64,000 bases of DNA from Thiogranum longum (GTDB taxonomy: Bacteria; Pseudomonadota; Gammaproteobacteria; DSM-19610), in NCBI RefSeq assembly GCF_004339085.1, contig NZ_SMFX01000001.1:2451352-2515351 (forward strand), given 5' to 3'. The position numbers were made by a program, and so were the translations under genes. The notes under the pieces are model-generated. The model worked only from the letters and a program-made list of their open reading frames with translations. It was not told the DNA's origin and made no database searches. Shown piece after piece: positions 27,309 through 30,096 of this stretch (the first letter of the stretch is position 1; the number at the start of each line of letters is the position of its first letter).

Positions 27309-27322
27309 CCCCGTCATTGCGA
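27309..27322. repeat. Fragment of the GTCATTGCGA repeat
   Basis: CCCCGTCATTGCGA is identical to the left end of the element at 25092-25105. Only this end is present, and it stops at the 3' end of the ArsR gene on the other strand. Confidence 0.5.
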
Positions 27323-27331
27323 GGATGGAAA

Positions 27332-27628
27332 TTACTTGTTCACCCAATCACGAAATTGATCGATCACTTCTCTGAGTTGATTGTCTGGAAGGCAGTAGTA
27401 GACAAATGGCCCGTTTCGCTCCGGTCTAACCAGACCGGCCTCCCGCAGGATACGGAGATGAAACGAAACGTTAGTCTGGCTCAGGCCGGTAACTTTCACG
27501 ATGTCGGTAACAGGTCGACATTCCAGACCAAGGCTCGTCACGATCCGCAGTCGATTAGGTTCTCCAAGTATTTTCAGGACCTTACTGAGGCTGTTGATCT
27601 CTTTCTTCTTGTATGCGTTAATACTCAT
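27332..27628 (-). CDS. ArsR-family winged-helix repressor
   Basis: The 98-residue protein has the ArsR/SmtB fold: LSKVLKILGEPNRLRIVTSL, then PVTDIVKVTGLSQTNVSFHLRILREAGLVRPERNGPFVYYCL. The classical ELCVCDL metal site in the alpha-3 helix is replaced by CRPVTDIV, leaving one Cys there and one in YYCL, so the inducer may be a different metal, a thiol reagent or not a metal. It is divergent from two methyltransferase genes, and direct repeats overlap its start codon. It probably represses both directions. Confidence 0.88.
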   Translation of the reverse strand: MSINAYKKKEINSLSKVLKILGEPNRLRIVTSLGLECRPVTDIVKVTGLSQTNVSFHLRILREAGLVRPERNGPFVYYCLPDNQLREVIDQFRDWVNK

Positions 27629-27650
27629 ATGTGTATATGCTCATATGTGT
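27624..27650. promoter_or_regulatory. Candidate ArsR operator (direct repeats with CATATG)
   Basis: The 11-base sequence CTCATATGTGT occurs twice, at 27624-27634 and 27640-27650, 16 bases apart. Each copy contains the palindrome CATATG, and the first overlaps the arsR start codon. The pattern resembles SmtB/ArsR operators (ATATGAnCA type). It lies in the 81-base interval before the divergent methyltransferase gene. Confidence 0.6.
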
Positions 27651-27709
27651 GAGTGCTTACCCACTGAATGGTCGTTGAATAACAGGCGGCTGTCAAACAG
27701 GACATTGAG

Positions 27710-28315
27710 ATGAACAAAGACAAGTTTTTTCCGGCAACAATTATGCCCGATAAAGACTGGTGGCATGCGTTATGGCCAAATCCGGAGATGGTAATACGTG
27801 ATGTCGGTATCGCAGCAGGTATGCGTACAGTGGATCTGTGCTGTGGAGACGGATATTTCACGCGGCCCATGTGTGAGCTATCAAGCCAGGTTTATGGTCT
27901 GGATCTGGATGCAGATTTATTGGGTCAGACAGAAACTGCATGTTGTACGTACAGTAACTTTCAATCGATCCTCGGTGATGCGCGCGACCTGCCGCAGTTG
28001 ATCGATGGTTTGGTCGATTTTGTGTTTATGGCTAACACGTTTCATGGCGTACCCGAGCAAGACAGGCTCTCCAGGGCAATTAACGAAACGCTGAATGAGG
28101 CGGGTCGTTTCGCGGTGATAAACTGGTACCGACGACCACGTGAGGAAACCACGGTACTTGATCAGCCCAGAGGCCCGGATAAGGAACTGCGTATGCAGCC
28201 AGAAGACGTTCAGCAGATTGTAGAACCTGCGGGGTTCATGCTTGAGAAAATTATTGATGTCGGCCCCTACCATTACGGTGCCGTATTCATTAAATCCGGC
28301 AAAAGTCAGGGGTAG
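27710..28315 (+). CDS. Class I SAM-dependent methyltransferase
   Basis: The 201-residue protein has a Rossmann methyltransferase core: motif I TVDLCCGDGYF (40-50), an acidic residue in VYGLDLDADL, LGDARDLP as motif II, then FVFMANTFHGV and GRFAVINWYRRP. It is a small, cytoplasmic, single-domain enzyme. Cys pairs (LCC, ACC) are notable beside an ArsR regulator, but no substrate can be assigned. It is 3 bases before the second methyltransferase, so the two are co-transcribed and probably controlled by the divergent ArsR protein. Confidence 0.82.
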   Translation: MNKDKFFPATIMPDKDWWHALWPNPEMVIRDVGIAAGMRTVDLCCGDGYFTRPMCELSSQVYGLDLDADLLGQTETACCTYSNFQSILGDARDLPQLIDGLVDFVFMANTFHGVPEQDRLSRAINETLNEAGRFAVINWYRRPREETTVLDQPRGPDKELRMQPEDVQQIVEPAGFMLEKIIDVGPYHYGAVFIKSGKSQG

Positions 28316-28318
28316 CCT

Positions 28319-29056
28319 ATGAGTTCCTGTGACGAAACAAAGATGCAGACGGAACTGATCGCTCTCTATACAAAGCTGGCAGAAAAGCCGGATTCTGACT
28401 TTGGTTGGAGCAAAGGCAAAGCCAATGCGCGTCAGTTAGGTTATTCAGACGCATGGCTGGATCAGCTGCCCGATGTGGTGTGGGAATCATCAGCCGCTGT
28501 TGGTAATCCGTTCAAGCTGGGTGAAATTGGCCCAGGACAGACTGTGGTTGATATTGGCTGTGGGGCAGGTGCAGATGCCTGTGTGGCCGCTTTACTTGTG
28601 GGGGACATGGGCAAGGTTATCGGTGTTGACTGCACTCCGGCAATGATAGACAAGTCACGAGATAACGCCCGGCACGCTGCACTGGATAACATTGAGTTCC
28701 ATGAGGCCGATATCGCCAATCTGGCCATTGCAGATAACTCCGTTGATGTTGTTATCTCTAACGGGGCTATTAACCTTTCTGAGAATAAAGACAAGGTATT
28801 CCAGGAGCTGTATCGTATCCTGAAACCCGGCGGTCGTTTGCAGATTGCTGATATGGTACGTGAATCAGAAGACTGTTGCAGCGCTGTCTCTGATGCAGAA
28901 TCATGGGCCGACTGCATTCAGGGAACATTACCGGCCGACAAATTATTGGAAATTATTACCAACGCTGGTTTCATTGATGCAGAACTTGTAGAACTGACAG
29001 GTTACAGAACATCTGCAAGTACTAATGGTGCGCTTTTTCGAGCGTTACATCCTTGA
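28319..29056 (+). CDS. ArsM-like SAM methyltransferase lacking two arsenic-binding cysteines
   Basis: The 245-residue protein has the arrangement of UbiE-like arsenite methyltransferases: GYSDAWLDQLP, AVGNPFKLGEIGPGQTVVDIGCGAG (motif I), VIGVDCTPAMIDKSR, ISNGAINLSENKDKVFQELYRILKPGGRL, then SWADCIQGTL. In ArsM three Cys bind As(III). Here the first position is V61 (GCGNP becomes AVGNP), the second is G149 (SNC becomes SNG), and only the third is kept (C199). It also has a CC pair at 186-187. So it probably methylates something else, or binds its ligand differently. It belongs to an ArsR-linked operon with the gene 3 bases upstream. Confidence 0.75.
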   Translation: MSSCDETKMQTELIALYTKLAEKPDSDFGWSKGKANARQLGYSDAWLDQLPDVVWESSAAVGNPFKLGEIGPGQTVVDIGCGAGADACVAALLVGDMGKVIGVDCTPAMIDKSRDNARHAALDNIEFHEADIANLAIADNSVDVVISNGAINLSENKDKVFQELYRILKPGGRLQIADMVRESEDCCSAVSDAESWADCIQGTLPADKLLEIITNAGFIDAELVELTGYRTSASTNGALFRALHP

Positions 29057-29117
29057 ATGCAAATGCCCGGAGTTGGCTGCTGACTCAACCGGTCATTGAT
29101 AGATTTGCACAGAGCAA

Positions 29118-29315
29118 GTCCCGGGCGGGGTGGTTTTTCGCCGGCGTCGGTGCAGCCGAGCATCGCAGACATTTTGCGATCAAGCGAGCGACTGTCTGAG
29201 CGGTTTGCGCGTCAGCGCAGACCGCGAGTTTCGCGAGCGCGCAACATGTCGAGAAGCGCAGGGGACCCGCGTAGCGGGCAAACCGTTGCCGGCGAAAAAC
29301 CACCCCGCCCGGGAC
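29118..29315. repeat. Inverted repeat with perfect 28-base arms
   Basis: The arms 29118-29145 and 29288-29315 are exact reverse complements over 28 bases (core GGCGGGGTGGTTTTTCGCC). They enclose 142 bases of structured, GC-rich DNA with no gene. The form fits a MITE-like or REP-type non-coding mobile unit, or a very long hairpin RNA. No flanking direct repeat was identified. Confidence 0.8.
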
Positions 29316-29347
29316 GATTGAAACCACCGGTGAAGAGCCTGATGGAG

Positions 29348-29379
29348 ATTGCCGCGTCGCTGCGCTTCTCGCAATGACG
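29348..29379. repeat. End fragment of the GTCATTGCGA repeat
   Basis: ATTGCCGCG..GCTGCGC..CTCGCAATGACG repeats, with small differences, the right end of the element at 25203-25228. It sits between the inverted repeat and the 3' end of pgl. Confidence 0.6.
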
Positions 29380-29406
29380 AGTAGGCCGGAAACGGTCGCT
29401 TGCCTC

Positions 29407-30096
29407 CTACCCGGCGCCCTGGCACGCTGCTTCATCCAGCAGAACATCGACACCTGCCGGGCATGCCAGCCGTGACACGGGTATATCCGCTCCCTGCTTC
29501 CAGCGGCGAACGGCGTCGCGCTTGGCCGCTCCCGTGACCAGCACGCAGATCGCATATGTATCACACAGGGCGCGAAACGTCAGGCTGACCCGTTCAGGTG
29601 GTGGTTTGGGAGCATCAAAAACAGGTATGACCAGGCGGTCATCCGGAACCGCATGGCCGGGAAACAGACTGGCGGTGTGACCGTCCTCACCGATCCCCAG
29701 CAATACCAGGTCGAAGGGCCGTTCGGTTGTGATCAGTTTCTCGTAGCTATCAGCCGCACGTTGCGGGCCCAGCTCGGCGGGCATGGGGAAAACCTGCTCC
29801 GCAGGAATCGGCACATGCGCCAGCCAGGCCTGTTGCGCCATAACGCTGTTACGTTCCGGGTGATCGACCGGCAGGCAGCGTTCGTCGCCGAACCAGACAA
29901 ACCAGCGCGACCAGTCGGTGTCGAAGTCTTTCAGTCCGCGGTACACCTGCTCAGGGGTCGTGCCGCCAGCCAGTACGATGACAAACCGGCCGCGTGCAGC
30001 GATGGCCTGTTGTGCAGCATCCTGTATCCGCAGGCGCGCCTGTGCGGCAACCGTATCGGCATCGGGAAAACACCGCCAGCGCAGGGAACCCGTCAT
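29407..30096 (-). CDS. pgl: Pgl, 6-phosphogluconolactonase
   Basis: The 229-residue protein has the NagB/Pgl fold: FVIVLAGGTTPEQVYRGL, WFVWFGDERCLPVDHPERNS, LGIGEDGHTASLFPGH and VTGAAKRDAVRRW. It hydrolyses 6-phosphogluconolactone in the oxidative pentose phosphate or Entner-Doudoroff route. No zwf or edd gene is next to it, which is unusual. It abuts yqhA with no gap: the yqhA stop ends where pgl begins. Confidence 0.95.
   Translation of the reverse strand: MTGSLRWRCFPDADTVAAQARLRIQDAAQQAIAARGRFVIVLAGGTTPEQVYRGLKDFDTDWSRWFVWFGDERCLPVDHPERNSVMAQQAWLAHVPIPAEQVFPMPAELGPQRAADSYEKLITTERPFDLVLLGIGEDGHTASLFPGHAVPDDRLVIPVFDAPKPPPERVSLTFRALCDTYAICVLVTGAAKRDAVRRWKQGADIPVSRLACPAGVDVLLDEAACQGAG

Follow-up and report, generated by a model that had tools for sequence, protein, structure and literature searches.

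A dispersed gammaproteobacterial repeat with a conserved core, a covarying stem and head-to-head pairing

Introduction

REPINs are moved by Y1 transposases, the terminal sequences of ERIC and Correia (NEMIS) elements are conserved family-wide, and the attC sites of integrons, which are smaller and occur one per cassette, are recognised by the integron integrase as folded single strands with variable arms and in a strand-specific manner. REPs measure 20–40 bp and carry GTAG or CGTC tags (PMC3733652), and transcripts of ERIC and Correia elements are reported to be processed by RNase (PMC10969869). Among longer units, R6 of Pseudomonas fluorescens spans 177 bp with 34-bp inverted repeats (PMC2718517), and QMITE2 of Coxiella burnetii spans 150–190 bp, with terminal inverted repeats of 23–29 bp and a core of 113–145 bp (PMC10969869); one QMITE2 copy yields a small RNA (PMC5896051).

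The element described here behaves like a MITE or a REPIN yet fails defining features of each. Like REP and REPIN sequences with their RAYT (TnpA-REP) partners, it forms foldback units that are extragenic, mostly 3' of genes, and found as singles and inverted pairs, but its module is about 200 nt long and Y1 transposases are missing from the genome. With ERIC and Correia elements it shares the form of a small, intergenic, palindromic MITE-like repeat; their termini are conserved, whereas its arms are sequence-free. The folded single strand, sequence-variable arms and strand specificity recall attC, although the one-per-cassette arrangement read by an integrase was not seen here. R6-type repeats, some families of which reach hundreds of copies, are also hairpin-forming and MITE-like, with inverted repeats around a core, but as described they combine identical inverted repeats with a core of variable size, the reverse of the present element (PMC2718517). 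QMITE2 is likewise gammaproteobacterial and strongly folding, lies mainly in 3' untranslated and intergenic sequence and is kept between strains; compared by description only, it differs in having 7–11 bp direct repeats and in containing a GTAG REP, and the description consulted mentions neither head-to-head pairing nor stem covariation (PMC5896051). No description of our element was found in a search of open-licence PubMed Central papers. We read it as a non-autonomous, MITE-like mobile unit with folded end-modules, the inverted repeat analysed here being the basal stem of one module, and give this reading a probability of roughly 0.55.

Results

An inverted repeat between convergent genes

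The window, a 64,000-nt stretch of Thiogranum longum DNA (G000:C1:2451352-2515351), comes from a complete genome of 2,916,906 bp. The initial annotation had singled out a perfect 28-base inverted repeat around 142 bases in a non-coding stretch and judged its arms too long for chance, and the repeat and its length beyond chance are confirmed. The arms are exact reverse complements (Table 1), and when extended to 34 nt (29118-29151 and 29282-29315) they are still 94% complementary. In a scan allowing gaps of up to 400 bases, 28 was the longest perfect inverted repeat of the window, against a maximum of 17 in 40 first-order Markov versions of it. The region lies between convergent genes, an ArsM-like gene on the + strand ending at 29056 and a 6-phosphogluconolactonase-like gene on the − strand ending at 29407 (names by eye), and the open reading frames that overlap the repeat appear spurious. 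A plasmid or phage source of this copy was rejected, blastn giving no match. Just upstream, 27332-29056 holds an ArsR-like regulator, a methyltransferase and the ArsM-like methyltransferase (again named by eye). A short dispersed repeat distinct from the element, of the GTCATTGCGAG type and with dozens of copies over the genomes of the genus, occurs at 29336-29380, adjoining the element downstream, and at about 27313-27330.

Table 1. Parts of the element in the window (window coordinates)
Feature	Position	Strand	Remarks
P1 basal stem, 5' arm	29118..29145	+	perfect over 28 nt; all 28 pairs covary in alignment A2
P1 basal stem, 3' arm	29288..29315	+	pairs with 29118..29145
Conserved core, 136 nt	29149..29284	+	match of covariance model R1, genome 2480492-2480643, 152 bits
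Internal helix P2, 5' side	29168..29178	+	double-sided changes in 9/11 pairs
Internal helix P2, 3' side	29240..29250	+	pairs with 29168..29178
Variable-length internal hairpin GCGGTTTGCGC-GTCA-GCGCAGACCGC	29200..29225	+	helix 7: double-sided changes in 6/10 pairs
3' conserved segment GCGCAGGGGACCCGCGTAGCGGGC with small hairpin	29256..29279	+	helix 8: zero double-sided changes
242-bp unit	29087..29328	+	98.8% identical to copy c2 (genome 1710590-1710831), which has unrelated flanks
Outer (3') end GACGATTGAAACCACC	29313..29328	+	resembles the ends of other A-type copies in the genus
Inner (5') flank GGTCATTGATAGATTTGCACAGAGCAAGTC	29091..29120	+	partly conserved among A-type copies

Stems that change letters and keep pairing

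The refuting condition set in the initial annotation, a lone copy without relatives, does not hold: a covariance model found 13 copies of the element in the genome at E<=1e-8, the window copy (c1) and 12 relatives. A whole-genome search for the exact 28-nt arm returned one further location, likewise an inverted pair. Copy c2 is a recent duplicate of the window copy. Alignment of the genome copies separates two subtypes, A, which includes the window copy, and B, and the 13 copies fall into four head-to-head pairs, each of A with B, and five that stand alone. We read the window copy as a single module, half of a full unit; no partner module was found for it inside the 64-kb window.

Across the copies of this genome and of seven relatives in the genus, a core of about 136 nt is conserved and the arms diverge. 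We measured pairing in two alignments drawn from 31 extracted copies: A1, with 29 cores (omitting c2, as a near duplicate of c1, and the damaged c7), and A2, with 26 copies (omitting c2, c7, c9, c12 and G007_50, as duplicates or for damaged arms); neither includes c13, which is cut by its neighbour. In A2, every one of the 28 P1 pairs shows double-sided changes, and 91.3% of P1 cells are paired, against 49.0% when shuffled and 38–48% (38.5–47.6%) when the partner is slid by 1–3 columns. None of 500 shuffles reached the P1 covariation score; shuffles take no account of relatedness, whereas the slid-partner controls do, and these score far lower. The core helices covary as well (double-sided changes in 24 of 45 pairs, 97.4% of cells paired in A1). 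The letters of the stem drift freely between copies, both sides nearly always change together, and pairing is kept.

Folding of one strand

Arm mismatches in 30 copies, read on the window + strand with no strand assumed, comprised 15 G-T, 2 A-C and 13 others (p=0.001). An internal stem leans the same way, with 29 G-T vs 6 A-C in 191 matches from other families (p=6e-5) and 7 vs 0 in 32 genus matches, and when structures were derived from the reverse strand the G-T excess stayed on the same side. Because G-T mismatches far outnumber A-C mismatches, we take the window + strand to be the strand that folds, as RNA or as single-stranded DNA, both of which give the same signal in this test.

Covarying helices and strand-specific G-U tolerance are features of structured RNA, and folded single-stranded DNA is equally compatible with them; searches of Rfam with the window locus (E<=1) and with 13 loci (E<=0.5) gave no match. 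These features argue for the main rival to our reading, one we consider somewhat unlikely, namely that the element is a host-serving structured RNA of 3' untranslated regions, co-transcribed with its genes and shaping the 3' ends of transcripts (stability, RNase III processing or termination). Its very stable fold points the same way, the window element folding far above shuffles on both strands (z -10.4 and -8.9). Against it, no sigma-70-like promoter was found near the window copy, and the two terminator-like matches there are short and weak (0.6 expected), with the T run within the long stem and not 3' of it.

Signs of movement, and persistence where the element has not moved

Three independent lines support mobility: the 242-bp duplicate, units with common ends in a second genome (G122, below), and a site that is filled in some relatives and empty in others. 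That site lies between argG and aceF. It is filled in six members of the genus (G002, G006, G007, G008, G009 and G016) and empty in G003, G005, G011, G013 and G014, with 37–50 bp between the gene matches; G000, G001 and G012 have other short sequence there. The covariance model has no match at this site in the eight unfilled genus members or in two members of the family. Compared with G016 and G007, G011 presents a clean empty site and no clear target duplication, and the empty sites may possibly reflect loss in place of gain. A purely local function, as in the host-serving RNA, leaves the recent duplication unexplained.

The initial annotation offered two identities for the repeat, a MITE-like element moved by an unseen transposase and a REP-type unit. 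Much of the former stands: there are 13 dispersed, non-autonomous copies, one of them a near-identical duplicate with unrelated flanks, and orthologous sites both filled and empty at argG-aceF. A departure from a classical MITE is that the terminal repeat is not conserved, the 28-nt arms differing in sequence between copies and keeping only their complementarity; in addition, no target-site duplication was found for the five copies tested. Unlike the arms, the short outer ends (ACCACC-like) are similar between copies. The REP-type identity is not supported. A REP palindrome of 20–40 bp contrasts with an element of about 240 bp (a 242-bp unit with a 136-nt core), in which GTAG appears in some copies at a position that is GYAG in most aligned rows. 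The Y1/RAYT-type transposase family PF01797 had no match in G000 or in G087, both carriers of the element, and a REP/RAYT system was rejected for this genome on the absence of a Y1 transposase. Among the transposase families covered, no candidate transposase or parent element was identified.

At sites where the element has stayed put, its stem has continued to change. Between copy c3 and its G010 orthologue, at an unmoved site, we count 11 double-sided changes and 1 single-sided; G007 and G016, with identical cores, differ by 3 and 1, and G002 and G007, where the pair is turned round with respect to the flanking sequence, by 8 and 0. Such compensatory change in copies that have not moved points to a constraint that still acts, and stems that go on pairing with altered letters suggest a local function and not a decaying mobile relic. 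Retained pairing at unmoved orthologous sites is also what the host-serving RNA would predict.

These proportions, together with a further 8:1 between loci or genomes, invite a reading without stem selection, in which the palindrome corrects itself as hairpin template switching during replication rewrites one arm from the other; intermediates appear fewer than stepwise compensation through G-U would be expected to leave. As a full account we find it highly doubtful. The asymmetry of G-T over A-C (15:2 and 29:6) is not what strand-neutral copying should yield, covariation extends to short internal helices, and the recent pair G010_48/G010_57 differs by three single-sided changes and no double-sided ones. 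Such copying could act alongside selection. In the mobile unit that we favour, since single-sided intermediates are rare, arm-to-arm template copying may contribute, and copies in place would keep their pairing through selection, through copying or through both.

Head-to-head units and their ends

We examined the arrangement of 230 matches at 144 loci, which were chosen for having a match and pooled from several searches and so are not a random sample; among their 81 adjacencies within 2.5 kb, 78 are head-to-head, 3 direct and none tail-to-tail. Most of the 78 head-to-head gaps (68) measure 16–252 bp and hold no cargo, and the other 10 measure 358–2020 bp. The family, its covariation and this pair architecture are well supported.

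In G122 it is the pair as a whole that repeats, as a unit of about 534 bp: matches at 11 places cover most of it at 86–100% identity, with starts at query positions 2-23 and ends at 549-601 (the query itself counted, matching 1-601), shorter partial matches occur too, and in one further copy an insert interrupts the spacer. Eight aligned copies have the common inverted ends GCTAGTGnTTGTTTCGGCC.

Several of the long gaps contain open reading frames of 94–470 aa, and none of the seven scanned reached a Pfam cut-off. Together with the 10 wide spacings these could suggest a system of gene cassettes, the paired modules being the ends of cassettes that each carry one gene of unknown function and are moved by an unseen recombinase. 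We think this very unlikely. The gap at L057 holds a transposase fragment (by eye) and resembles an ordinary insertion, and several long gaps between matches hold core genes and represent separate elements. The 68 pairs that carry nothing, on which cargo genes were rejected as a general rule, and the window copy, with no partner inside the window, also weigh against it.

Gene context favours the 3' ends of genes. For the 100 of 152 units with both flanking open reading frames found (neighbours being simply the longest ones), 46 lie between convergent genes, 48 between codirectional and 6 between divergent genes (convergent vs divergent, p=5e-9). The excess of convergent settings suits the host-serving RNA, in which a head-to-head pair would supply both convergent transcripts with one sense copy apiece. 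Solo copies in codirectional settings, at 8 sense vs 14 antisense, have no sense preference, and a purely local function does not explain why tail-to-tail pairs are absent within 2.5 kb.

We keep to the mobile unit with folded ends, copies that spread requiring something that moves them. The full unit would consist of two head-to-head modules with a short spacer or, in a minority, a gene between them, and each end-module would be a folded single strand of about 200 nt whose basal stem is the inverted repeat. The module at each end retains its fold, with a core that is conserved and a stem whose letters are free, which makes recognition by shape and core, on one strand, probable; an enzyme working in trans would read the module mainly in this way, and stem sequence could then drift as long as the arms still pair. 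A bolder version, which we consider unlikely, is a new class of mobile unit across Gammaproteobacteria, with ends set by folded shape, conserved core and sequence-free stem, obligatory head-to-head pairing, sometimes one gene of unknown function, and unrecognised machinery. If the reading that we favour is right, a widespread bacterial repeat would be recognised by pairing and a folded core in place of the letters of a terminal repeat, and ordinary repeat finders, built around conserved inverted termini, would break it up or overlook it. The element also offers a natural test of paired-arm co-evolution: copies number in the dozens, there are orthologues whose stems have changed around an identical core, and a single genus has both filled and empty sites. 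It poses the question, too, of which machinery moves or maintains such units where the genome lacks a Y1 transposase.

The ends take two forms. In most other families an extra hairpin, GTTACTTTTCTTTG-loop-CAAAGAAAAGTAAC, stands outside the core at each end, its place being taken by a long stem around the core in the genus of the window; G008, a member of this genus, has the hairpin type at argG-aceF, where other members have the stem type. Outer hairpins of the form TTTCTTTTGGTTACTTTTCTTTG-loop-CAAAGAAAAGTAACC (L144 1130-1200 and 3100-3140; L196; L161) are preceded by a pyrimidine run that mirrors the stem and, by eye, tracks its changes in three examples; hairpin and run could form an intramolecular triple helix.

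Distribution

Of 370 gammaproteobacterial genomes sampled, 46 contain the core by the covariance model, as do 37 of 273 genera. A phylum-wide search found the element in 16 of 397 genomes, every one of them gammaproteobacterial, the share of other classes in that sample being uncounted, so that absence elsewhere is not claimed. Both searches scored 7–8 candidates per genome, which makes their copy numbers lower bounds. Relatives found by exact pattern are labelled as Thiohalobacter, Thiogranum, an Ectothiorhodospiraceae bacterium, an Oceanospirillales bacterium and unclassified Gammaproteobacteria, and Variovorax paradoxus CP063167.1 (L264 2080-2637) carries an unannotated head-to-head pair.

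Shared neighbour genes (gltD, metG, gltA, dnaJ, ppa and others) were considered as proof of ancient fixed positions and dropped, their number being about that expected by chance on a rough estimate, except for gltD-hemE. That interval is a site of the same element in two different families of the class (L077, L084, L178, L179, L186, L193), which counts against the mobile unit. The Variovorax paradoxus pair is flanked by a short HigB-type/regulator gene pair and an ABC transporter gene. One copy lies on an IMG/VR contig (L164 7628-7776) whose proteins look Mu-like by eye, and the sequence may be host DNA at a prophage border. Outside the phylum, a look-alike of the outer hairpin occurs at six places on the Ilyobacter polytropus plasmid pILYOP01 (L165 3001-3049), the core being absent from the stretch searched.
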